Origin: a bacterium
Lineage (GTDB): Bacteria; Zhuqueibacterota; QNDG01; DSAB01
DNA: 57,187 nucleotides
NCBI GenBank assembly: GCA_011388275.1
Contig: DSAB01000005.1
Span: 1 to 57,187 of the forward strand
Direction: 5' to 3'
Positions 8,727 through 20,730 of the stretch are shown here, piece by piece. The stretch's first letter is position 1; every line of letters begins with the position of its first letter. Under the pieces are notes generated by a model. It worked only from the letters and a program-made list of their open reading frames with translations. It was not told the origin of the DNA and made no database searches. The position numbers were made by a program, and so were the translations under genes.

Positions 8727-9602
8727 TCATGACCGGAGACGCTTTTTCATCGCGGCTCCGAACCCTGTGGGTGAATCCACGACCGTTACTCCGGCCTCGC
8801 GAAGGGCTTCGATCTTTTCGCCGGCCGTGCCCTTGCCGCCGGCTATAATGGCGCCCGCATGTCCCATGCGTTTACCCGGCGGCGCTGTTCGGCCGGCAAT
8901 GAAAGCCACGACAGGCTTGTTGAATTCCTGCTTGATATATCGGGCGGCCTCCTCCTCATCGGTTCCTCCGATCTCGCCGATGAGCACCACGCCCTCGGTC
9001 TGAGAATCTTCCTTGAAAAGCTTCAGCCCGTCTACGAACCGGGTGCCGATGATGGGATCCCCGCCGAGGCCGATACAGGTGCTCTGCCCCAGTTTCTCCC
9101 TGGTCAGCTGATCCACGGCTTCATAGGTCAGGGTTCCGCTTCGGGAAAGAACTCCGACCCTTCCCTTTTCGTGAATGAAACCCGGCATGATGCCGATCTT
9201 GCATTTGCCCGGCGAGATAATACCCGGACAATTGGGCCCGATGAAACGCACACCCTTTTTTTCGGTATACACCCGCGCCTGCCGAATCATATCGAGAGTG
9301 GGGATACCCTCGCTGATGCAGACAACCAGCTTGACGCCCGCGTCCGCCGCTTCCATCAGGGCATCCGAGGCAAACATGGGAGGCACAAAAATCACCGAAG
9401 TATCGCCACCCGTCTCATGAACGGCTTCGGCCACCGCATTGAAGACAGGAATTCCTTCAAAGACCGTTCCTCCCTTGCCGGGCGTCACGCCGGCCACCAC
9501 TTGAGTGCCGTATTCCTTCATCTGCCGAGTATGAAAAGAACCCTCTTTTCCGGTGATTCCCTGAACGATGACCTTTGTGTTTTCATCAACAAGAATACTC
9601 AT
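8727..9602 (-). CDS. sucD: Succinyl-CoA synthetase (ADP-forming), alpha subunit
   Basis: A 291-residue protein of standard length with the CoA-binding N-terminal domain ([18 protein letters not shown]) and the phosphohistidine loop GHAGAI near residue 245. It also has [10 protein letters not shown] and [13 protein letters not shown]. With SucC, 36 nt upstream, it catalyses succinyl-CoA + ADP + Pi to succinate + CoA + ATP, or the reverse. Lying between the 2-oxoacid:ferredoxin oxidoreductase and fumarase genes, it supplies the succinyl-CoA/succinate step of the half-cycle encoded here. Confidence 0.96.
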
Positions 9603-9638
9603 AAACCTTTCTCCGATCGTAAAAGAACCGTTCGCTTT

Positions 9639-10799
9639 TCACACGCCAGCGGCTTTCACGGCTTTTTCCGCGGCATCGGCCAGTGTGTCGGCAACGGCAA
9701 AAGACAGTCCCGATTGATTTAAGATCTCACCGGCTATTTCGCTGTTGGTTCCGGCCAGGCGGATCACAATCGGCACCTTGATCTCGAGCCGTTTGGCGGC
9801 CTCCACCACACCCTCGGCCACCCGGTCGCAGCGAACAATGCCGCCGAAAATATTGATCAAAACGGATTTGACATTCGGATCGGACAGCAGAATGCGAAAA
9901 GCCTGCTCCACCCGTTCCGCGGAAGCGGCGCCGCCCACGTCGAGAAAATTGGCCGGCATGGAACCGTAGAGCTGAATAATATCCATGGTGGCCATGGCCA
10001 GTCCCGCTCCATTGACCATGCACCCCACATTGCCGTCCAGTTTAACGTAACTGAGTTTGTGTTTCGAGGCCTCGACTTCAGCGGGTTCTTCTTCATGAAT
10101 ATCCCTCAGCTCACGAATGTCCTCGTGCCTTCCCAGGGCGTTGTCGTCAAAATTGACCTTCGCGTCGGCCGCCAGCAGACGCCCGTTACGCGAGATTACC
10201 AGAGGATTGATTTCCACCAGAGAGGCGTCTTTTTCTATAAAGAGCCGGTACATTTTGATCAGAAGATCCGTTCCCGGCCGGATGAGCGGTTCCGGCAGGT
10301 TGAGACCGAAGGCGATCTTTCGGGCCTGAAAAGGCTGCAGGCCGATTTCGGGCATGACCGGTTCACGGATCAGCTTCTCCGGAGTGTTGGCGGCGACTTC
10401 TTCGATATCCATGCCGCCGGCTTCCGAGGCGATGACGGTCACACAGGACTGTTTGCGGTCGATAACCATGCCCAGATAGAGCTCTTTCTCCACATCCAGG
10501 GCCTCCTCCACCAGAACCATGCGGACCATACGTCCCTGGGGGCCGGTCTGATGCGTGACCAGCGTCATGCCCAATATGGATTCGGCCTTTTCACGCGCAT
10601 CGTCGGGTGAATCGGCCAGTTTGATTCCTCCGCCTTTGCCCCTTCCTCCGGCATGGATCTGAGCCTTGACTGCCACACGCGTCCCCAGTTCAGCGGCCGC
10701 TTTTTGCGCCTCTTCAGGCGTCTCCGCCATCCGGCCCCCTGGCACCGGAATTCCGTAATCTTTCAACAATGCCTTGGCCTGGCCTTCATGAATTTTCAT
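9639..10799 (-). CDS. sucC: Succinyl-CoA synthetase (ADP-forming), beta subunit
   Basis: A 386-residue protein with the ATP-grasp N-terminal domain (KIHEGQAKALLKDYGIPVP, KAQIHAGGRGKGGGIK) and the C-terminal ligase domain (GCMVNGAGLAMATMD, NFLDVGGAA, NIFGGIVRCD). Length and motifs are canonical. It follows the gamma subunit of the oxidoreductase by 27 nt and precedes sucD. The nucleotide preference (ATP or GTP) cannot be read with certainty. Confidence 0.96.
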   Translation of the reverse strand: MKIHEGQAKALLKDYGIPVPGGRMAETPEEAQKAAAELGTRVAVKAQIHAGGRGKGGGIKLADSPDDAREKAESILGMTLVTHQTGPQGRMVRMVLVEEALDVEKELYLGMVIDRKQSCVTVIASEAGGMDIEEVAANTPEKLIREPVMPEIGLQPFQARKIAFGLNLPEPLIRPGTDLLIKMYRLFIEKDASLVEINPLVISRNGRLLAADAKVNFDDNALGRHEDIRELRDIHEEEPAEVEASKHKLSYVKLDGNVGCMVNGAGLAMATMDIIQLYGSMPANFLDVGGAASAERVEQAFRILLSDPNVKSVLINIFGGIVRCDRVAEGVVEAAKRLEIKVPIVIRLAGTNSEIAGEILNQSGLSFAVADTLADAAEKAVKAAGV

Positions 10800-10826: not shown

Positions 10827-11342
10827 TTACGCGTATTCGTACCCCTTCTCAAACGCTTTCAGGTTTTTATCCACAAACCGTTCGGGAACCGATTCGGGAA
10901 TGGCTTTCCGCATGGCCTCCAGTGAGACCGCCTTCGTGACCCGGATGACGTATCCCAGCATCACCACATTGGCGAAAATACGATGCCCCAGCTCTTCGGC
11001 GATACGCGTGGAGGGAATTTTCAGAACCTTCTTCGTGCTGTCGGTATTCACAAGATCGTCATCGATGATCAGCACACCGTCATCCTTGACCTCGGATTCG
11101 AACTTGCTGTAACCCTCCTGAGACATCGCCACCAGATAGTCGGACCGTGTGATGTAAGGATACAGAATTTTCTTGTCCGAAATGAGCAGCTGCGAACTGC
11201 AGGCCCCGCCGCGGGCTTCGGGTCCGAACGCTTGATTCATGGTGGAATATTTGTTGTCGTAGATGGAAGCGGCTCTGCCGACTATGATTCCGGAACGGAT
11301 GATTCCCTGGCCGCCGAATCCTGCGAATCTGATTTCTAACAT
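10827..11342 (-). CDS. korC: 2-oxoacid:ferredoxin oxidoreductase, gamma subunit
   Basis: A 171-residue gamma (CoA-binding, domain III) subunit with RFAGFGGQGIIRSG and FGPEARGGACSSQL, the two family motifs. Only one gamma subunit is present although alpha and beta are duplicated, so one gamma must serve both pairs or bind only the active one. Its start lies 2 nt after the beta2 stop. Immediate proximity to sucCD favours 2-oxoglutarate, rather than pyruvate, as the substrate. korC is used here in the sense of the gamma subunit. Confidence 0.9.
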   Translation of the reverse strand: MLEIRFAGFGGQGIIRSGIIVGRAASIYDNKYSTMNQAFGPEARGGACSSQLLISDKKILYPYITRSDYLVAMSQEGYSKFESEVKDDGVLIIDDDLVNTDSTKKVLKIPSTRIAEELGHRIFANVVMLGYVIRVTKAVSLEAMRKAIPESVPERFVDKNLKAFEKGYEYA

Positions 11343-11344
11343 AT

Positions 11345-12064
11345 CTATACCTCTATCTTCACGAATTGATCGCCCAAAACCTCTTCAAGCTGCCGGTTGT
11401 AGGATTCAATGAAGGTCGGCCGTTCCCGCTCGAGGAATTCTCCTACAATGATCTTCTTTTCTTCTTCAATTCCCGTATGAATGGTATCTTCCCCATTTCT
11501 GATTTCCGAATGCCGGTAATAAAAATCGAGCAGTTCCGCCGGGGGTGAGATCACATCAATAACGGACAGACCTTTTTTCTTCAGACCATGGGAGATGGAC
11601 CGGGTCAGTTCATCCGTATGCAGGGCTGTCCATCGGGCCGTGTACACACTGCCGCATGACCTGGCTATATGTGGAATGTTCAGCGGATTCTCGAATAGCA
11701 GATAGGGGGAATAGGAAACCGTATCATAATCGCCGGAAGCCGACTCTCCTTCCACCCGCCGGTAGACGAAATGATTGGCGCAGATCACCAAAAGATCCAT
11801 ATTCCTTCGGCATGCATGCACAAAATGATTCCCGCCCAGGGTCGCCATGTCACCCATGATGACAACAGGCTTTAATTTGGGATTGGCCAGTTTCATGCCC
11901 GTTGCAAACGGGATGGTCCGGCCTCTGGATGTATGGAACAGGTCGATCTTCAAGGTCTCCAAAACTTCGGGATCGTACAGAATATCCGTCACCAGACAGA
12001 CTCTTTTTCTGCCGATTCCGGATTTTTCGATCCCCTTGCTGAGTGCTTCCAGTATTTTGTCCAT
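11345..12064 (-). CDS. Beta2: degenerate beta subunit of 2-oxoacid:ferredoxin oxidoreductase
   Basis: A 239-residue beta-subunit homologue, shorter than the 281-residue beta1 encoded just upstream. It aligns well in HTSRGRTIPFATGMKLANP and GGNHFVHACRRNMDL, yet every catalytic feature is gone. The CPGCG pair of cluster cysteines is replaced by CLVTD, the GIGC cysteine segment is absent, and SPC is SPP, so no [4Fe-4S] cluster is expected. The thiamine-diphosphate motif GDGD is GDMA and TGGQ is EGES. There is no frameshift or stop, and the gene keeps its place and spacing, so it looks maintained as a structural or regulatory subunit rather than as a decaying pseudogene. Confidence 0.85.
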   Translation of the reverse strand: MDKILEALSKGIEKSGIGRKRVCLVTDILYDPEVLETLKIDLFHTSRGRTIPFATGMKLANPKLKPVVIMGDMATLGGNHFVHACRRNMDLLVICANHFVYRRVEGESASGDYDTVSYSPYLLFENPLNIPHIARSCGSVYTARWTALHTDELTRSISHGLKKKGLSVIDVISPPAELLDFYYRHSEIRNGEDTIHTGIEEEKKIIVGEFLERERPTFIESYNRQLEEVLGDQFVKIEV

Positions 12065-12079
12065 TGTCCCTCTGCCTGT

Positions 12080-13357
12080 TTATGATCTATTTTTCAGCAT
12101 GCCGCCGCCGAAAACCTTTCTCTCCAGAATGGTTCTGAACTCAAATACATTCTCATAGCGTTTTTTAGATTCAAGCAGCTGCCGGATCGCCGCATAAATA
12201 TCTTCCGGCTGATGAACCGAAGCCCCACCATGAGGCACCAGAACGACATTCGCCCTGCCCTCTGCGCAGCGGTCGACTTCGAACACGATCTGCCCGTAAT
12301 TGATCTCCGGAACCACGAAACCCTTGACCCGGCCGGCGAGCTCCCTGATCCGCTCCTCCGGAAAGGGCCAAACGGTGATCAGACGCAGCGTGCCGACCTT
12401 ATATCCTTCCTGTCTGGCCTGTTCGACGGCCCGGTAAGCCACGCGGGAGCTGATACCGTATGAGACGACCACCACATCGGCGTCTTCCGTGTTTTCTTCC
12501 TGGATTTCGATGATCTTGTCCCGGTTCTTGCGAATTTTATCCACCAGGTATTGATCCGTGGATTTCCTGTTCAGGGCCCGAGCATGTTCCAGATCATAAG
12601 AATTCCCGGACTCAAGAACAGGATGCCCCTTTTCGTCATGCGACAGTCCGGTAATATATATTCCGTATCCATCACCCGCTTTGACGATGGGAGAAACCAG
12701 ATCCGGATCCCGTTTATACGGCAGATAGGCATCCGCCGGGCCTTTATAAAACCGGCGGGGTTCGATGTCGATCTTCGAAGCTTCAGGCACCACGACCTTC
12801 TCCGTCATGTGTCCCACACACTCATCGGACATGAGCATGACCGGGCAGCGGTACCGCTCTGCCAGGTTGAAGGCCTTTACGGCAAACTCGAAGCCCTCCT
12901 GGGGCGAATCGGGTGCCAGGGCGATGATCTCATAGTCTCCGTTGCCACCCCAGCGGGACTGCATGACATCGGCCTGCCCCGTACATGTGGGAACGCCCGT
13001 TGACGGCCCCGCCCTCTGAATATTGATGATGATAAAGGGGATCTCCATGGCGGCGCCCAGGGAAATATTCTCCATCATCAAAGAATAACTCGGCCCGGAG
13101 GTGATGGTCATGGCTTTCTGGCCGGCCCAGGACGCACCAAGCACCGAAGCGATGGATCCCAGTTCATCCTCCATCTGAATGAAACGGGCACCCGCCCGGG
13201 GGGCGATTCGGGCGAAAGCCTCCGCCGCTTCGGTGGAGGGCGTAATCGGGTAACCGCCCAGAAACTTGCACCCCGCGGCCAGAGCCCCGTACGCCATGGC
13301 CACGTCGCCGTCTATGTAGTATGTTCCGGTGAATACATCCCGCGGATCCGCTTTCAA
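12080..13357 (-). CDS. korA: Alpha2: 2-oxoacid:ferredoxin oxidoreductase, alpha subunit (canonical)
   Basis: A 425-residue alpha subunit. It has the conserved GGYPITPST (Thr39, which contacts the substrate carboxylate in the family) and QRAGPSTGVPT (Arg for substrate/CoA). The start is TTG at 13357, with GGGGAGGA 6 nt upstream; this gives MKADPRDVFTGT, matching the alpha1 start MKADFKAVLTGT, whereas the longer GTG reading adds 31 unrelated residues. A C-terminal extension of about 35 residues is absent from alpha1. It lies between beta1 and beta2. Alpha2 with beta1 is the only combination in which both halves of the active site are intact. Confidence 0.9.
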   Translation of the reverse strand: MKADPRDVFTGTYYIDGDVAMAYGALAAGCKFLGGYPITPSTEAAEAFARIAPRAGARFIQMEDELGSIASVLGASWAGQKAMTITSGPSYSLMMENISLGAAMEIPFIIINIQRAGPSTGVPTCTGQADVMQSRWGGNGDYEIIALAPDSPQEGFEFAVKAFNLAERYRCPVMLMSDECVGHMTEKVVVPEASKIDIEPRRFYKGPADAYLPYKRDPDLVSPIVKAGDGYGIYITGLSHDEKGHPVLESGNSYDLEHARALNRKSTDQYLVDKIRKNRDKIIEIQEENTEDADVVVVSYGISSRVAYRAVEQARQEGYKVGTLRLITVWPFPEERIRELAGRVKGFVVPEINYGQIVFEVDRCAEGRANVVLVPHGGASVHQPEDIYAAIRQLLESKKRYENVFEFRTILERKVFGGGMLKNRS

Positions 13358-13422
13358 CCTTGTCCTCCCCAACTGATCATCAGTTGCTTTCTTCTGCTGT
13401 CTATTCCGCAGCGGCCTTTCCT

Positions 13423-14268
13423 TTATTCGACCTGATCTTTCCTGAGCCACTCGTTCAGAGACTCGGAAAAGGCAGGCCGCTCTCTGTCCACAAATTTGCC
13501 GACGATGATCTCCTTCTGATAGTCGATGTTCAGATTATCCGTCGATTCTCCGTGTCTGATTATCGAATTATTGTAGTAAAACTGCATCATATCCAGACCG
13601 TCGCCCAGCTTGTTGATGCGGGAATAGTACATGGCGCAGGGCGAGATGACCTCCACCACGGAAAAACCCGGCCGGTTGAAAGCCTCCACAATGGAGTCGG
13701 CCAGCCTTCGCATGTGCAGAGCGGTCCATCGGGCGACGTACACGGCGCCCGCGGCTTCCGCCAGCTGGGGCACATTGGCCGGCGCCTCAAAATTGCCGAA
13801 AGGTGACGTCGTTGTGTAAGCCGGTATGGGCGTGGTGGGCGCCACCTGGCCTCCGGTCATGGCGTAGATGAAATTATTGACGCAGATGACGGTCAAATCG
13901 ATGTTTCTGCGGGCCGCGTGGACGAAGTGATTCCCGCCGATGGAAACCAGGTCGCCGTCGCCGGAAATGACGATCACTTTCAGGTCCGGATTTCCCAGTT
14001 TGATTCCCGTGGCAAAGGCGATGGCCCGGCCGTGGGTGGTGTGAAAAGAGTCTGTCTTGATATACCCCGCCACCCTTCCCGTGCACCCGATTCCCGAGAC
14101 AACGACCACCTTGTCCAGATCATATTCCAGTTTCCGCAGGGCTTCGGCGAAGGCGCTGACCGCGTTCCCGATGCCGCATCCGGGGCACCAGATATGAGGA
14201 ATCCGGTCCATGCGAAGCAGATCGTCCATGGGGTGTTTCTGTTCTTGAATGGTGTTTATCGTTTCCAT
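13423..14268 (-). CDS. korB: Beta1: 2-oxoacid:ferredoxin oxidoreductase, beta subunit (canonical)
   Basis: A 281-residue beta subunit with all expected ligands: Cys28 and Cys31 in WCPGCG, Cys62 in GIGC and Cys211 in SPC for the [4Fe-4S] cluster. The thiamine-diphosphate motif is GDGD (103-106) through NNF (131-133), with TGGQ following. It catalyses the reversible ferredoxin-dependent conversion of a 2-oxoacid + CoA to acyl-CoA + CO2. The short N-terminus and TGGQVAPTT match the 2-oxoglutarate/generic Kor branch. The start lies 10 nt after the alpha1 stop. Confidence 0.94.
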   Translation of the reverse strand: METINTIQEQKHPMDDLLRMDRIPHIWCPGCGIGNAVSAFAEALRKLEYDLDKVVVVSGIGCTGRVAGYIKTDSFHTTHGRAIAFATGIKLGNPDLKVIVISGDGDLVSIGGNHFVHAARRNIDLTVICVNNFIYAMTGGQVAPTTPIPAYTTTSPFGNFEAPANVPQLAEAAGAVYVARWTALHMRRLADSIVEAFNRPGFSVVEVISPCAMYYSRINKLGDGLDMMQFYYNNSIIRHGESTDNLNIDYQKEIIVGKFVDRERPAFSESLNEWLRKDQVE

Positions 14269-14278
14269 AATTGACCCG

Positions 14279-15439
14279 TTATTTATTGGTTTTTTGAATG
14301 GCTTTCAGGATGCTCCCCGGTTTTCCGACTTCCCGCGCGGCGTGATAAACCGCGTCCACGCCGGCACGTCCTCGGCTGCATCGCTCGACCTCCAGACTGA
14401 TCTGTCCGAAGTTGATCTCCGGCACCACGAAACGTTTGATTCCCGCGGCGATCTCGGCGATCCTTTTTTCCGGAAACGGCCAGACCGTCTGAAGGCGGAA
14501 ATATCCGGCTTTGATTCCTTCTTTCCGGGCGGCCTCCACGGCCGTCAGTGCGTCCCGCGAAACAACCCCGTACGATACGACAGCTACATCGGCTTCTTCA
14601 AGATACTTCTCTTCCATTCGGACGATTTTATCCGCAAACAGGCGGATCTTGTTCACCAGCCTGTGGACATTCCATTCCTGGCATTCATCATTCATCACCG
14701 GATATCCCTTTTCGTCATGCGTCAGACCGGTAACATGAAACCGGTATCCCTGACTGATGTCCACCATAGACGGGATGAGATCCTTTTCATCATATTTATA
14801 TGGAAGATAGCCGTCTTTGGGCCCCTTGTAGTACTTGCGCTTCTCGACACGAATCTTCGCGGCCTCGGGAATATTCACGGAATCCTTCATCCGCCCAAGA
14901 ACCGGATCGAATAAGATCACAACCGGTGTGCGGTACCTTTCCGACAGGCTGAAAGCTTCGACGGTCAGATCGAACATCTCCTGCGGCGAATTCGGCGCCA
15001 GGGCGATGATCTCGTAATCCCCGTGCGACCCCCATCTCGCCTGCATCACATCGCCGCCTCCGGGCATGGACGGAATCCCTTCGGACGCCCCGTCATGCAT
15101 AACATTGACGATTACACAGGGAGTCTCGAGCATCACGCCCAGCCCGATATGTTCCATCATCTGCGCGAAACCCTGACCGGAAGTGACCGTCAGAGCCTTC
15201 CTGCCCGTCCACACCGCGCCCAGCACCGCGGCCAGTGAAGAAATTTCGTCCTCCATCTGAACAAATGTAGCACCGGTTTCGGCGCAGCGGGTGATAAAAC
15301 GCCGCACAATGCCGAAAGAAGGCTGAATGGGCGTATAGCCCAAAAAACCGCAGCCGGCGGCCAGGGCCCCTTCGGCGCAGGCCTCATAACCGCTCAACGG
15401 ATGGGTTCCTGTCAAAACCGCTTTAAAATCTGCTTTCAA
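14279..15439 (-). CDS. Alpha1: alpha subunit of 2-oxoacid:ferredoxin oxidoreductase with altered active-site motifs
   Basis: A 386-residue alpha-subunit paralogue of alpha2 that aligns without gaps over the first 40 residues. The substrate motif YPITPST is replaced by YTPIQPSF (Thr39 to Gln), and QRAGPSTGVPT is replaced by MHDGASEGIPS, removing the conserved Arg. The overall fold motifs are kept (GDVMQARWG, GDYEIIALAP, VVPEINFGQ). The start is TTG at 15439 with AAGGGG 6 nt upstream. I infer that this subunit cannot complete a normal active site with its neighbour beta1 and may serve assembly, electron transfer or regulation; altered substrate choice is the alternative. Confidence 0.87.
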   Translation of the reverse strand: MKADFKAVLTGTHPLSGYEACAEGALAAGCGFLGYTPIQPSFGIVRRFITRCAETGATFVQMEDEISSLAAVLGAVWTGRKALTVTSGQGFAQMMEHIGLGVMLETPCVIVNVMHDGASEGIPSMPGGGDVMQARWGSHGDYEIIALAPNSPQEMFDLTVEAFSLSERYRTPVVILFDPVLGRMKDSVNIPEAAKIRVEKRKYYKGPKDGYLPYKYDEKDLIPSMVDISQGYRFHVTGLTHDEKGYPVMNDECQEWNVHRLVNKIRLFADKIVRMEEKYLEEADVAVVSYGVVSRDALTAVEAARKEGIKAGYFRLQTVWPFPEKRIAEIAAGIKRFVVPEINFGQISLEVERCSRGRAGVDAVYHAAREVGKPGSILKAIQKTNK

Positions 15440-15495: not shown

Positions 15496-15801
15496 TTATC
15501 GTTTGACTGATTCGGCCGGGGCCGGTTCCCGCTCACCGGATTCCACCTCAACCGAAAAGATGGCAAAATCCGGACAGTTCATCTGGCAGAAGCCGCAATC
15601 CACACATTCCTCTTCATGGGCCACATAAGGGGGATGATACCCCTTGGAATTGTACTTGTCGGAGAGTCTCAGCACATCATTGGGACAGTATTCGATACAG
15701 AAACCGCACCCTTTGCACCGATCCTCGATAATGACGATTTGTCCGCGTGCGGTGACCGGCTTCTCAATTCCAAAAGGCTTTTCTCTGTTTCTGATACGCA
15801 T
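15496..15801 (-). CDS. korD: 2-oxoacid:ferredoxin oxidoreductase, delta (2x[4Fe-4S] ferredoxin) subunit
   Basis: A 101-residue ferredoxin-like subunit with CKGCGFCIEYCP and CVDCGFCQMNCP, spaced as in KorD/PorD. It carries electrons from the cluster of the beta subunit to external ferredoxin. It is the first gene of the oxidoreductase block, 57 nt upstream of alpha1. The short C-terminal tail rich in Glu, Pro and Ala is unremarkable. Confidence 0.92.
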   Translation of the reverse strand: MRIRNREKPFGIEKPVTARGQIVIIEDRCKGCGFCIEYCPNDVLRLSDKYNSKGYHPPYVAHEEECVDCGFCQMNCPDFAIFSVEVESGEREPAPAESVKR

Positions 15802-15820: not shown

Positions 15821-17494
15821 CTATCGGAGTGTTCCGACATACTGTGTGGTCAGCTGCCGCTTGCGCACGTCAGGATTGCTGTAATCGGGCAGAATCATGG
15901 GAGAGACCCGGCCGTTTACATTCACGCCGGCTTCGATCAATTCCTGATGATATTTCCTGACGTGTTCCAGAGTCGGTTTTCCGTCCTTGTATTTGCTCTT
16001 GACATAATCAGCGGCCGTTACCCCGGTGATCCGTCCGAAAACCGTCACATCCAGAAGAGAATTGCCCATCAGCCGGTTTTCACCGTGCACGCCGCCGCTG
16101 ACCTCGCCGCCCGCGAACAGACCCGGTATCCCGGTCTCACCCTTATTATTGATGGCCAAACCCCCGTTCTGATAATGAAGCGTGGGATAGACGAGCATGG
16201 GTTCTCTGGTGATGTCGATCCCGTAGCGATGGAAAAGAATCCACTTGCCCGGAAATTCCCGCCGCACATACCCCTCGCCTTTCAGATGATCGATCATCGG
16301 CGAATCCAGCCAGACACCGAATTTGCCTGTCGGTGTGGGAATCCCCTTTTTCCGTTCGATGCATTCCCTGATGAAAGCCGAAGCCTCCACGTCACGGGGT
16401 TCCCGCTCATAGACGAACTGCTCTCCGTCGATATTCACTACGTTGGCTCCCGCGCCCCGGAACTTCTCCGTGATCAGCAGTCCTTCTGCCTGTTCGGGAA
16501 ATACCGCTCCCGTCGGATGATACTGAACCGTGTGGAGAAATTTCAGGGGAATCCCGGCCCGGTATCCCATAATCAGTCCGTCCCCCGTGGCTCCGTAATG
16601 GTTGGTGGTCATAAATTCCTGAATATGCAGCCTCCCGGATCCGCCCGTGGCCAGGATGGTGGCTTTGGCCTTGACCAGGATATACTCTTCGGTTTCCAGA
16701 TTGTACAGCACCGCTCCCGCGCAGGCCCCCTTGTCATTCAGAATCAGCTCCACGGCAGGCGAAAACTCCAAAACCTTGATATCCTGCGCGTGATTGCGGG
16801 CTTCATCCCGAAGAGTCCGCATGATTTCAGCACCCGTGATATCTCCGGCATAATGCATGCGCTTTCGGGATGTCCCCCCGCCGTGCAGGGTTTTCAGCCG
16901 GCCGTCTTCGGTTTTCGAAAACATGGATCCAAGCTTGTCGAGCCAGGCCATGACTTTGGGCGCCTCATTGACCAATATTTCCACCAGTTCCGGGTCGTTC
17001 TTGAAATGGCCGCCTCCCATGACATCGAGGTAATGATAATAGGGCGAATCCTTCTCGCTTTTGGTGGCGGCCTGTATGCCGCCCTCGGCCATCATGGTGT
17101 TGGCGTCGCCATGACGGAGTTTGGTGGCGATGAGAACTTTCATCTTCTTTTCCCGCGCCATGAGCGCCGCGGCGGTTCCCGCACCGCCGCCGCCGATCAC
17201 CAGCACATCCGTCTCGTAATCGGGCCGGGTCAGTTCGACCTGATCGGGATCGACCCGGCTTTTGGCATGGAGCAGGCTCACGATTTCATTGGAAATCCGG
17301 TATCCCCGGCTTGGGCCGACCTTGATCTCCGAGCGTCCCGCTTCCTTGAAATCGGGATGGTACTTCAAAATATCTTCCCGTTCCTTGAGAGACATGGCCG
17401 GAAACTCTTCTCCCCCGCGTTTCTGTTCCACACGTTTCGGCCGAGTCTTCTCGACGACTTTGATCAGTTTCTTCAATTCTGGTGTGTATGGCAT
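15821..17494 (-). CDS. Fumarate reductase / succinate dehydrogenase-type flavoprotein with N-terminal extension
   Basis: A 557-residue flavoprotein of the FrdA/SdhA/TfrA family. The dinucleotide motif VLVIGGGGAGTAAA begins near residue 97, so about 95 residues precede the part where FrdA normally starts; that extension is Lys/Glu-rich and has no cysteines. Family catalytic elements are present: RHGDANTMMAEGGIQAA in the FAD loop, QYHPTGAVFPEQA, TEKFRGAGA with the proton-relay Arg, and NRLMGNSLLDVTVFGR. No signal peptide or membrane anchor gene is nearby, and the partners are the FrdB-like protein (35 nt upstream) and the MvhD/Hdr genes. A cytoplasmic fumarate reductase coupled to Hdr, analogous to methanogen TfrA, is the best inference. 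Confidence 0.88.
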   Translation of the reverse strand: MPYTPELKKLIKVVEKTRPKRVEQKRGGEEFPAMSLKEREDILKYHPDFKEAGRSEIKVGPSRGYRISNEIVSLLHAKSRVDPDQVELTRPDYETDVLVIGGGGAGTAAALMAREKKMKVLIATKLRHGDANTMMAEGGIQAATKSEKDSPYYHYLDVMGGGHFKNDPELVEILVNEAPKVMAWLDKLGSMFSKTEDGRLKTLHGGGTSRKRMHYAGDITGAEIMRTLRDEARNHAQDIKVLEFSPAVELILNDKGACAGAVLYNLETEEYILVKAKATILATGGSGRLHIQEFMTTNHYGATGDGLIMGYRAGIPLKFLHTVQYHPTGAVFPEQAEGLLITEKFRGAGANVVNIDGEQFVYEREPRDVEASAFIRECIERKKGIPTPTGKFGVWLDSPMIDHLKGEGYVRREFPGKWILFHRYGIDITREPMLVYPTLHYQNGGLAINNKGETGIPGLFAGGEVSGGVHGENRLMGNSLLDVTVFGRITGVTAADYVKSKYKDGKPTLEHVRKYHQELIEAGVNVNGRVSPMILPDYSNPDVRKRQLTTQYVGTLR

Positions 17495-17529
17495 GACTTC
17501 TTCTCCATGAGAAAAGGTTCGACCCGTTC

Positions 17530-18324
17530 TTATTCAACGATGATGAATGTCTTGTCTTCAGGTTCCCAATACTCTTCGGCCATGTCCGGTTCGATTTCGC
17601 GTTCATTGTAAATCTTTTTCAATTCTGCCATTTTCATCCGTTTGAGTTTCTCGAGACCTTTTTGAAACTTGCCCTTTTCGATGAGATCCACGACCTTGTT
17701 GACATGTTTGGCCCTGGGAGCAATATGCCGGCCGTACAGTCTTCGGCAGAGAATGCCGATATTGTATTGGGCCTCCTCGGCCGGACAGCGGGCCGAGCAT
17801 AACCCGCACATCACGCAGTCAAAAGACAGTTCCGCGGCGCCCGCCACATCACCCCGAATGGCACGGGAGATATACTCCATGACATCGATATCCATGGGGC
17901 AGCTTCGGGTACAGGTTCCGCAGCCGACGCATTTGAAGATTTCCGGATACAAGGCAGCGACCGTCGAACCCGTAGGCTCCAGTTTCTCGATATCATAAAC
18001 AGCCTTGTTGGCCGGGAAGAAAGGAATCTGGGTGATGTACATGTCGGGTTCGACAACGGTCTGACAGGCCAGCCCGACCTCGATGCGATAGGAACCGGGA
18101 AACCGGTAAACCGTTCCGCAAGCGCCGCAAATTCCGCCGCGGCATCCGCATCCCCGGACCAGCTGATATCCGGCGTACTCCAGGGCCTTCTGGATGGTCA
18201 GTGAAGCGGGAACCTCATACCGCTTGCCCATGACAAAAATGGGAACCATTGCTTCCGTTCCGGCCGGCCCGCCGGTTTTCTTCTTCGAACTCTTGTCTTT
18301 GACTTCAACAGGAATTTTACTCAT
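17530..18324 (-). CDS. FrdB/TfrB-like Fe-S protein ([2Fe-2S] plus two [4Fe-4S])
   Basis: This 264-residue protein has a flexible 28-residue N-terminus, a ferredoxin-like [2Fe-2S] domain (CGCRGGICGACG, then LACQ), then CVGCGTCTRSCP and CVMCGLCSARCP near residues 145 and 185. This is the FrdB/SdhB layout. It lacks the C-terminal HdrB-like CCG domain that methanogen TfrB carries; here that function would come from the separate HdrB. It overlaps mvhD by 8 nt and precedes the flavoprotein. The expected role is electron transfer between HdrABC-MvhD and the fumarate-reducing flavoprotein. Confidence 0.88.
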   Translation of the reverse strand: MSKIPVEVKDKSSKKKTGGPAGTEAMVPIFVMGKRYEVPASLTIQKALEYAGYQLVRGCGCRGGICGACGTVYRFPGSYRIEVGLACQTVVEPDMYITQIPFFPANKAVYDIEKLEPTGSTVAALYPEIFKCVGCGTCTRSCPMDIDVMEYISRAIRGDVAGAAELSFDCVMCGLCSARCPAEEAQYNIGILCRRLYGRHIAPRAKHVNKVVDLIEKGKFQKGLEKLKRMKMAELKKIYNEREIEPDMAEEYWEPEDKTFIIVE

Positions 18325-18757
18325 GGCTGAAATCCTTTTGATTGTTTAACGTCATTTTATCGAGATTGAGAGGACCCAGTTCAGCGATCTGTGCGGTAAA
18401 GTCATTCATGGCCTGGACAAATTTTCGTCCCTCGGCCGCGGAAATCCATTCGAGCCGGAACCGTTTGCGGCTGATTCCCAGATCTTCCAGCATTTTCGCG
18501 AAAAGAATGGACCGGCGCAAGGTTTTGTAGTTGCCCTCCACGTAATGGCAGTCGCCGGGATGACAGCCTCCGATGAAGACCCCGTCCGCTCCCTGCCTGA
18601 AAGCGTAGAGAATATGCTGCAAATCGATCCGGCTGGAGCACATCACCCGCAGGTTGATCCCGCTGGGATCGTATTTCATGCGGGAGGTCCCGGCCAGATC
18701 GGCCCCGGCATAAGTGCACCACTTGCAGAGAAAACACATAATTTGCGGCTCGAACAT
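18317..18757 (-). CDS. mvhD: MvhD, hydrogenase delta subunit ([2Fe-2S] connector to HdrA)
   Basis: A 146-residue canonical MvhD: CFLCKWCTYAGADLAG, VMCSSRID, GCHPGDCHYVEGNYK and RFRLEWISAAEG. In methanogens MvhD carries electrons from the MvhAG hydrogenase into the flavin of HdrA. Here it follows HdrA by 2 nt and overlaps the FrdB-like gene, and MvhA/MvhG are encoded 7 kb upstream in the same array, so the full HdrABC-MvhADG set is present. Confidence 0.94.
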   Translation of the reverse strand: MFEPQIMCFLCKWCTYAGADLAGTSRMKYDPSGINLRVMCSSRIDLQHILYAFRQGADGVFIGGCHPGDCHYVEGNYKTLRRSILFAKMLEDLGISRKRFRLEWISAAEGRKFVQAMNDFTAQIAELGPLNLDKMTLNNQKDFSHE

Positions 18758-18759
18758 GA

Positions 18760-20730
18760 CTACCCCCTCAATATGGCTCTCACCATCGAGAATATCTGAT
18801 CATCGGTTTGATTGCGCTGCTGGGCGGCTCCGGACGGGCAGGCCGCGGCGCAGGCGCCGCAGCCCTCGCAAAGCACTTCATTGACCTTTACCACGCCTTT
18901 TTCCTTATCGAGCTCACGAGCGCTGTAAGGACAGATGGTAACACAGATGCCGCAGCCGCTGCACAGATCCTCATCCACCGGCACCACCGTCGGTTCATGC
19001 AGCAGCTGCTCCTGCGCGAACAGATCGCCCACTTTGGCTACCGCGGCCGAGGCCTGGGATACGGTCTCGGGAATATCCTTGGGGCCGTGTGCGCATCCGG
19101 CAAGATAAAACCCGGCATTGAGACTTTCGACCGGCCTGAGTTTGGGGTGCGCCTCGGAAAGCCAGCCGTTGGCGTCACTGGAAATTCTCAACTTCTTCAG
19201 AAGCTCATTGACACCGTCTGTCTGCACCATAGACATGGCCAGCACCACCAGATCCGCCTCCATCTCAATCTTGCGGCCGGTGAGCGTATCCACTCCCCAG
19301 ACGATGATCTTATCGCCTTCCTTGTATACTTTGGAAACCTTGCCCCTCACATAGAGCACCTGATCCTCATCGATGGTTCGCTGATAAAATTCCTCGAAGT
19401 TTTTTCCCCCGGTCCTGACGTCGATGTAGAACACGGTCGCGTTCCCGTCCGGCACATGATGTTTGTAAAGCATGGCGTGTTTGGACGTGTACATGCAGCA
19501 GATTTTGGAGCAGTACGGATTGTGATTCTCGGGATCCCGGGATCCGCAGCACTGGATGAAAACCACATTCTTGGGGACTTTTCCGTCGGAAGGTCTTCGG
19601 ACCTCTCCGCCTGTGGGTCCTGACGCGGACAAAATGCGTTCGAATTCCAGACCGTTGATCACATCTTCGTATTTTTCGCCTCCAAACTCTCCCAAATGGT
19701 TCAGATCATATAAATCGTATCCGGTGGAAACCACCACCGCGCCCACCTCTTCCTCGAAAACCGTTTCCTGATCATCGTAATTGATGGCATCGGGTTCACA
19801 AACCTCCTTGCATTTCCCGCAGCGGATGGGAAGCAGCCCCAGACAGTTTTCAATATCCAGCGTGTAGGTTCCGGGAACGGCCTGCGGAAAGGGCAGATAG
19901 ATCGCCTTGCGGAAGGAAAGCCCCATGTTGAACTCATCGGACACAATCTGGGGGCAGACATCCTCACAATCTGCGCACATGGTGCATTTGTCGGGATCCA
20001 CGAAACGGGGCTTCTTGCGGATCTTCACCTTGAAATTGCCCACATATCCCGAAATGGATTCCACTTCATGATAGGTCAGGATCCTGATATTGGGATGTCT
20101 GGACGCTTCCACCATTTTCGGCGTCATGATGCATTGGGAACAATCCAGCGTGGGAAACGTCTCCGACAGCTGAATCATGTGTCCGCCGATCGAGGGATTT
20201 TTTTCGACCAGGAGCACTTCATAACCGTGGTCGGCGATGTCCAGAGCCGACTGTATCCCGCTGATGCCGGCTCCGATGACCAGGGCCCTCCGGGTCACTC
20301 CGACCCGAATGGGTTCCAGGCTTTCGTTCTGAAGCACTTTTTCGACCATGGATTTCACAATCTTGATCGCCTTGAGCGTGGCTTTTTCCTTGTCTGAGTG
20401 CACCCAGCTGTCCTGCTCCCGGATATTGGCGATTTCAACCTGGTAGGGATTGAGACCGGCCAGTTCGATGACACTCTGGAACGTTTTTTCATGGAGAGTC
20501 GGCGAGCAGGCGGCCACGATAATGGAATCCAGCTTTTCTTCACGAATCGTTTCCAGAATCATGTTCTGGCCGGGTTCGGAACACATATAGATGTAATGCG
20601 TCGAAAAGCTGACACCGGAATACCCTTCCAGGGCCTTTGCGACCCGTTCGACATCAACCACGCCGGCGATATTCACGCCGCAATGACAGACAAAAACGCC
20701 GATTCGTTTCTTCTTTCCGTTTCCGTTCAT
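18760..20730 (-). CDS. hdrA: HdrA, flavin-bifurcating subunit of heterodisulfide-reductase-type complex
   Basis: A 656-residue standard-length HdrA. It has the N-terminal CHCGVNIAGVVDV domain, the FAD-binding VIGAGISGIQSALDIA near residue 150, the HdrA cysteine motif DCSQCIMTPKM, internal ferredoxin motifs (CTMCADCEDVCP; CGKCKEVCEPDA), and a C-terminal 2x[4Fe-4S] ferredoxin (CSGCGICVTICP, CEGCGACAAACPSGAA). HdrA splits electron pairs between a low-potential acceptor (ferredoxin) and a high-potential branch through HdrBC. The ATG overlaps the HdrB stop (ATGA), so translation is coupled. Electron input most likely comes from MvhAG through MvhD. Confidence 0.96.
   Translation of the reverse strand: MNGNGKKKRIGVFVCHCGVNIAGVVDVERVAKALEGYSGVSFSTHYIYMCSEPGQNMILETIREEKLDSIIVAACSPTLHEKTFQSVIELAGLNPYQVEIANIREQDSWVHSDKEKATLKAIKIVKSMVEKVLQNESLEPIRVGVTRRALVIGAGISGIQSALDIADHGYEVLLVEKNPSIGGHMIQLSETFPTLDCSQCIMTPKMVEASRHPNIRILTYHEVESISGYVGNFKVKIRKKPRFVDPDKCTMCADCEDVCPQIVSDEFNMGLSFRKAIYLPFPQAVPGTYTLDIENCLGLLPIRCGKCKEVCEPDAINYDDQETVFEEEVGAVVVSTGYDLYDLNHLGEFGGEKYEDVINGLEFERILSASGPTGGEVRRPSDGKVPKNVVFIQCCGSRDPENHNPYCSKICCMYTSKHAMLYKHHVPDGNATVFYIDVRTGGKNFEEFYQRTIDEDQVLYVRGKVSKVYKEGDKIIVWGVDTLTGRKIEMEADLVVLAMSMVQTDGVNELLKKLRISSDANGWLSEAHPKLRPVESLNAGFYLAGCAHGPKDIPETVSQASAAVAKVGDLFAQEQLLHEPTVVPVDEDLCSGCGICVTICPYSARELDKEKGVVKVNEVLCEGCGACAAACPSGAAQQRNQTDDQIFSMVRAILRG

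Follow-up and report, generated by a model that had tools for sequence, protein, structure and literature searches.

A 57,187-nucleotide stretch of DNA from a bacterium of the Zhuqueibacterota (GenBank assembly GCA_011388275.1, contig DSAB01000005.1, positions 1 to 57,187), referred to below as the window, contains an operon that, judging by the homology of its products, is a duplicated 2-oxoacid:ferredoxin oxidoreductase (OFOR) of the Kor type. Its six genes lie in the order delta-alpha1-beta1-alpha2-beta2-gamma, and we propose, with a probability of roughly 0.78, that they encode one asymmetric enzyme with a core of (alpha2-beta1)(alpha1-beta2) plus gamma and delta, whose one active site would be completed in trans by a loop of alpha1. 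The physical pairing of the subunits, their 1:1:1:1 stoichiometry, the single active site, the activity and the substrate are all points that we infer. A preliminary description of the window had reported four intact, tightly spaced alpha and beta genes with a single gamma and delta, and had suggested a complex of one active and one pseudo-active half; the open reading frames, with intergenic gaps of 2 to ~65 bases, agree with the former, and the comparisons below support the latter as a reading. Pfam and NCBIfam assign all six products to the OFOR family. Homologues of all four OFOR subunits (alpha, beta, gamma and delta) occur together in this operon, with Pfam matches above cutoff for alpha1 and alpha2 (POR_N, PFOR_II), beta1 and beta2 (TPP_enzyme_C), and gamma (POR). 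NCBIfam Oor models match the window subunits as well, yet under their cutoffs.

The residues expected of a working site are known from the OFOR of Sulfolobus tokodaii (PDB 5b46-5b48), in which thiamine diphosphate (TPP) sits between alpha and beta, and the GDG motif (89-91) and Asn118 of beta hold a Mg ion at the TPP pyrophosphate (PMC5020499). On the alpha side, TPP is activated by Glu294, while the carboxylate of the substrate is held by Arg344 together with Thr256 from the motif YPITP; Thr349 forms part of the pocket wall, and the opposite protomer extends its Asp468 into the active site (PMC5020499). Mutants of YPITP residues and of Arg344 in the Sulfolobus OFOR lose most or all activity, and T349L does not (PMC5020499). 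We transferred these residues to the window proteins through PDB alignments, in which Thr349 corresponds to the Thr of QRxGPST and Asp468 aligns with a Leu in the alpha loop HxTGLTHD.

The two alpha copies differ at precisely these substrate positions. Alpha1, the pseudo-alpha (14279..15439, minus strand; 386 aa from a TTG start), reads TPIQP and MHDGASEG where alpha2, the catalytic alpha (12080..13357, minus strand), has intact YPITP and QRAGPSTG. In alpha1 both substrate-site Thr are gone, with Gln39 (15323..15325, minus strand) replacing the YPITP Thr in the motif alignment (StOFOR1 Thr256), while the QMEDE Glu and the trans loop are present. We compiled a motif table of 29 alpha1, 31 alpha2, 30 beta1 and 30 beta2 rows, in which one odd alpha2 row (locus L185) is a scaffold-gap artefact. 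The YPITP Thr is missing from all 28 alpha1 sequences that span the site, and the Thr of PSTG, a loss that had escaped the preliminary description, from all 29. The Arg of QRxGPST, also listed there as lost, is gone from 11 of the 29 alpha1 sequences and present in the other 18, so the loss does not generalise and we rejected it as a defining alpha1 trait. Alpha2 keeps the YPITP Thr, the PSTG Thr and the Arg throughout the table, as had been described for the YPITP Thr and the Arg of the window copy. The alpha2 reading frame can be extended to a GTG (12080-13450), but the true start is probably the TTG at 13357, since a GGGGAGG lies a few bases upstream of it.

The beta copies show the opposite assignment. 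Beta1, the catalytic beta (13423..14268, minus strand; 281 aa), has the four cluster cysteines (28, 31, 62 and 211), GDGD, the Mg-ligand Asn and TGGQ. The cysteines and GDGD had been noted before, and the whole set is present in all 30 beta1 sequences. Beta2, the pseudo-beta (11345..12064, minus strand; 239 aa), has no Fe-S cysteines: the N-terminal CxxC segment is missing, Cys62 is replaced by Tyr and Cys211 is gone. MTGGQ has become RVEGE, HTTH has become HTSR, and the Mg-thiamine motif is short of two residues, which turns VISGDGDLVSIGGNH into VIMGDMATLGGNH. The earlier claim that beta2 had lost its four cysteines and TGGQ therefore stands, but that of a wholly lost GDGD does not, as one GD (residues 71-72; 11849..11854, minus strand) remains after the two deleted residues. 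Cysteines 2, 3 and 4 are lost in 30 of 30 beta2 sequences and cysteine 1 in at least 27, the three leftover letters lying in N-terminal columns that are mostly gaps and precede the likely start; two GDGD residues are missing in every beta2, and the Mg-ligand Asn is lost in 10 of 30. New residues stand at canonical positions: Gly59 is replaced by Asp, His79 by Arg and Cys62 by an aromatic residue in all 30 sequences, and Thr154 by Phe in 28 of 30 (derived residues of the window copy include Asp27, Tyr30 and Arg47). That these replacements are few and fixed speaks for a selected structure.

One complete OFOR site (alpha Thr and Arg, QMEDE Glu, beta GDG and Asn, four Cys) can thus be assembled only from alpha2 and beta1, and the complementary losses at key sites run without exception across the motif table. 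The earlier proposal that each adjacent alpha-beta pair is half degenerate, with only alpha2 plus beta1 complete, holds. The recurrence of the degenerate positions in other genomes, suggested there as a check, was found in ~30 genomes and in a held-out set described below, which is more than chance, the same halves being affected in every genome examined. By sequence, the doubled operon does not fit the usual OFOR arrangement of a symmetric dimer whose two TPP sites are equivalent, since site residues are missing from alpha1 and beta2 in every case; such two-site symmetry is a usual feature of OFORs, not a strictly defining one.

An operon with two alpha and two beta genes might also encode two OFORs with different substrates that share gamma and delta, alpha1 having switched substrate rather than died. 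Sharing of this kind has a precedent in Pyrococcus, where Por and Vor have one gamma in common. Loss of the YPITP Thr need not mean loss of function either, as oxalate oxidoreductase has a functional Arg in its place (PMC5020499). The substitutes in alpha1, however, are diverse (V, Q, A, M, P, E, F, S and I), and such many and unrelated replacements, with no new consensus, speak against a new substrate. Beta2 could not supply TPP or a cluster to a second enzyme, and the motif table contains no two catalytically complete alpha-beta sets of the Por/Vor kind. Two independent active enzymes, which the preliminary description had named as the outcome that would overturn its reading, are excluded by the sequences in that neither neighbouring pair is complete, and we consider the two-substrate explanation very improbable.

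Further evidence for a single asymmetric enzyme comes from the trans loop. In window alpha1 this loop is HVTGLTH (residues 235-241; 14717..14737, minus strand), aligned to StOFOR1 464-470, which includes Asp468'. We rejected Asp468' itself as a conserved trans residue and used the loop as the marker of the trans contact, because the residue is Leu in this subfamily and in bacterial 2-oxoglutarate enzymes. The loop was chosen since PMC5020499 names it, and its boundaries were set by us. Canonical columns lost in alpha1 and kept in alpha2 include Thr40, Thr43, Ser69, Arg116, Ser120, Thr121, Thr125 and the 180-185 stretch (alignment numbering), whereas those lost in alpha2 and kept in alpha1 are few, with several clustered in the loop (His235, Leu239, Thr240 and, marginally, Thr237). 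When changes were counted on the alpha tree for the 29 genomes with both copies, the loop had changed 0 times in alpha1 versus 29 times in alpha2, and the cis substrate motifs 60 times in alpha1 versus 0 times in alpha2. Among 20,000 random sets of canonical columns, none reached the loop difference and 26 reached the cis difference. Overall, alpha1 evolves faster (250 changes versus 112 in alpha2). A fixed-threshold column count gave a weaker but concordant result (loop, p ~0.003; cis motifs, p ~0.001). After the HDE loop comes a segment of 16 residues in every alpha1, of 16-17 in single-copy enzymes, and of anything between 13 and 27 in the alpha2 of doubled loci. Loci from Cloacimonadota, gathered after the loop and cis analysis and treated as a held-out set, contain two alpha1 copies with an intact loop and the Thr gone, six alpha2 copies spanning the cis motifs, with the motifs intact and the loops varied, and eight beta2 copies with the derived residues. 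A loop unchanged in 29 genomes while that of alpha2 drifts suggests that alpha1 is more than a scaffold.

These patterns fit a single duplication of a canonical alpha-beta pair, after which the two protomers specialised. Alpha2 should pair with beta1, because the alpha2 site needs TPP and only beta1 looks able to hold it. In the resulting protomer, TPP and Mg would be held by the GDG and Asn of beta1, TPP would be activated by the QMEDE Glu of alpha2, and the substrate carboxylate would be held by the alpha2 Thr (YPITP) and Arg (QRxGPST), with electrons passing from TPP to the [4Fe-4S] cluster of beta1 and on to delta. Alpha1 should pair with beta2, because the loop is contributed by the protomer across the interface and has been kept in alpha1 alone. 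The alpha1-beta2 protomer would not bind cofactor or substrate in the usual manner and would be kept as the second half of an obligate dimer, its HxTGLTHD loop crossing the interface into the alpha2-beta1 site.

The doubled operon is not a local decay or accident. In the phylum of the window it was found in the genome itself, in a genome of the same family (G001) and in KSB1 bacterium 4484_219 (G012). A plain delta-alpha-beta-gamma operon is present in other members of the window's order and in relatives from its phylum. A scan of 84,980 species genomes recovered it in WOR-3, Stahlbacteria, Cloacimonadota, TA06 and Phycisphaerae bacterium SM23_30. In all, beta2 was found in ~38 sampled genomes from WOR-3, Cloacimonadota, KSB1 and one planctomycete: a clear beta2 is present in ~26 of the 147 genomes searched in the WOR-3 phylum, in 8 of 125 in the phylum of the Cloacimonadota genome and in 1 of 392 in that of the planctomycete, and three KSB1-phylum genomes complete the total. 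The order alpha1-beta1-alpha2-beta2-gamma is constant wherever a contig covers it; the position of delta varies. An apparent split operon in one genome (G172) was rejected as a scaffold gap within alpha2, and seemingly separate beta1 and beta2 loci in another (G216) are pieces on four contigs and not interpretable. In maximum-likelihood trees (quick search), alpha1, alpha2, beta1 and beta2 each form one clade; alpha1 and alpha2 are sisters with a support of 99 within the single-copy alphas, and beta1 and beta2 are sisters with a support of 92 within the single-copy betas. The simplest reading is one ancient duplication of the alpha-beta pair, with both products inherited jointly, and the patchy distribution among phyla suggests some horizontal transfer.

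Both degenerate copies are under purifying selection. The ratio of nonsynonymous to synonymous substitution rates (dN/dS) is 0.063-0.094 for alpha1 and 0.057-0.138 for beta2, near the beta1 and alpha2 values, in WOR-3 pairs with dS of ~0.6-1.2; the pair L175/L176 is nearly identical, with too few changes to weigh, and dS between the window and its nearest relative is saturated and yields no usable ratio. Both are also predicted to keep the OFOR fold: the AlphaFold2 model of alpha1 has a mean predicted local distance difference test (pLDDT) score of 89.6 and matches OFOR alpha chains best, with a template modelling (TM) score of 0.87 to the Oor alpha of Helicobacter pylori (8ys5_A), and that of beta2 has a mean pLDDT of 88.4, with OFOR beta chains as its top PDB matches. 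Alpha1 and beta2 thus resemble the pseudoenzymes of enzyme/pseudoenzyme complexes in being paralogues that lack catalytic residues and are nevertheless conserved. One could instead see alpha1 and beta2 as functionless, decaying leftovers of a tandem duplication, given that they evolve faster than their partners and that beta2 is disrupted in two genomes. Decay, however, does not account for dN/dS of 0.06-0.14, for a gene order shared by several phyla, or for the invariance of the derived beta2 residues and of the alpha1 trans loop, and we give this explanation almost no credence. Neutral evolution of the two copies, the other outcome that would have undone the preliminary reading, is likewise refuted by the dN/dS values, the intact reading frames and the fixed derived residues.

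Several points weigh against a single asymmetric enzyme. The physical complex, its stoichiometry and its activity are predictions from the sequences of the doubled loci. Alpha1 is not fully dead, since the Glu that activates TPP is present and so, in most copies, is the Arg. That the loop reaches across in trans is carried over from an archaeal OFOR of ~25% identity, and the residue is here Leu in place of Asp. The genomes counted are related, which parsimony counting lessens and does not eliminate. Support for joining beta1 and beta2 is not strong (92, in a quick tree with a long beta2 branch). Finally, the two disrupted beta2 genes are those of L049 (3551-4237, KSB1 4484_219), which has frameshifts and a missing segment, and L178 (4058-4825, a WOR-3 genome), which has one in-frame TAG; both disruptions are perhaps assembly errors or else late losses.

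The retention of alpha1-beta2 could also reflect repurposing, in which the old TPP and cluster site binds another ligand or a redox partner for regulation or docking, in addition to stabilising the dimer. The fixed derived residues of beta2 at canonical positions (59, 62, 79 and 154) are compatible with this, as is the presence of Hdr/Mvh or Tfr genes beside many doubled loci. The bulky beta2 replacements, however, resemble the filling of a cavity as much as the making of a new site, and Hdr/Mvh neighbours are equally common by single operons (26/45) and doubled ones (18/33). We rejected Hdr/Mvh docking as the reason for the dead half on these counts, and regard repurposing in general as unlikely, though less so than two enzymes or decay. 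A more specific version is that the beta2 cavity, with its invariant Asp and Arg, might sense a metabolite or hold a partner and so control the single site via the alpha1 loop; this too we offer only tentatively, as an unlikely possibility.

The remaining genes of the operon are single. Gamma (10827..11342, minus strand; 171 aa) matches PF01558 and TIGR02175 above cutoff, and delta (15496..15801, minus strand; 101 aa) is a 2x[4Fe-4S] ferredoxin with two CxxCxxCxxxC motifs and a Fer4 match, whose top NCBIfam match is OGOR_delta with a score under the model cutoff. Directly downstream of gamma lie the succinyl-CoA ligase genes (8727..10799, minus strand; sucC 9639-10799, sucD 8727-9602; NCBIfam above cutoff), followed by a glcD-like gene. 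Because sucCD adjoins the operon, 2-oxoglutarate/succinyl-CoA is most likely the substrate pair; sucC or sucCD is also found at loci L191 and L168.

The upstream context (15821..20730, minus strand) consists of tfrA (15821-17494), tfrB (17530-18324), mvhD (18317-18757) and hdrA (18760-20730), where tfrA and tfrB are a pair resembling a soluble fumarate reductase and tfrB is named by sequence and gene order alone, with no NCBIfam match at E<=1e-20. These genes are directly upstream and co-directional both in the window and at the same-family locus L048, and several of the doubled loci in WOR-3 likewise have tfrBA immediately upstream. A link among 2-oxoglutarate oxidation, ferredoxin and fumarate is possible. 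In two WOR-3 genomes (L164, L165), two further OFOR beta genes and delta genes flank an hdrA that is 65% identical to that of the window; with the window alphas as query, no alpha gene was detected between the extra betas. The window's own genome also has a two-gene OFOR (L166, G000:C3) with a 637-aa alpha, probably a gamma-alpha fusion, and a 337-aa beta, both ~35% identical to the window subunits.

Known systems resemble the doubled operon in part. All six window subunits are homologous to those of OorDABC from H. pylori (PDB 8ys5/8ys6), whose chains are among the closest solved alpha and beta structures by fold or sequence, and of KorDABG-type operons, but those systems, with a single gene each for alpha and beta, form a symmetric dimer with two active sites, whereas the window has two of each, one of each non-catalytic. 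S. tokodaii OFOR1 and OFOR2 share the domain I/II and VI folds and the residue map, but consist of two fused-type subunits in a symmetric enzyme with both sites competent. The five-subunit Por/For of Aquificaceae (PMC10052474) is an OFOR with an extra subunit, which is related to carbon monoxide dehydrogenase/acetyl-CoA synthase (CODH/ACS) and is not a duplicated alpha or beta. The trypanosome AdoMetDC-prozyme (PMC5201418) and the nickel metformin hydrolase MetCaCb (PMC11271267) are likewise reported to combine an active copy with a paralogue; these enzymes are unrelated, and in the window two subunit pairs share the degeneration and the live site appears to borrow a loop from the dead half. 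No description of a duplicated or pseudo-subunit OFOR was found in the open-licence literature searched, and the excerpted text of a WOR-3 survey lists the genes as korABCD and does not mention the duplication (PMC12542636). Annotated in this way, the operon may be credited with a second enzyme that probably does not exist.

OFORs are ancient enzymes, central in anaerobic carbon metabolism and the reverse tricarboxylic acid cycle. For the OFOR structures consulted, the published descriptions are of a symmetric dimer that has two TPP sites. In the Sulfolobus OFOR a distance of 16.5 A separates the two TPPs, and communication between the sites (alternating-sites reactivity) has been raised (PMC5020499). 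The reciprocal losses in the doubled operon amount to a prediction, made from sequence only, of subunit pairing and of a trans-acting loop. If the dead protomer were regulatory, the enzyme would be an allosterically controlled, one-site OFOR. We know of no other example of such an enzyme, and a natural one-site OFOR would directly test the need for two sites.

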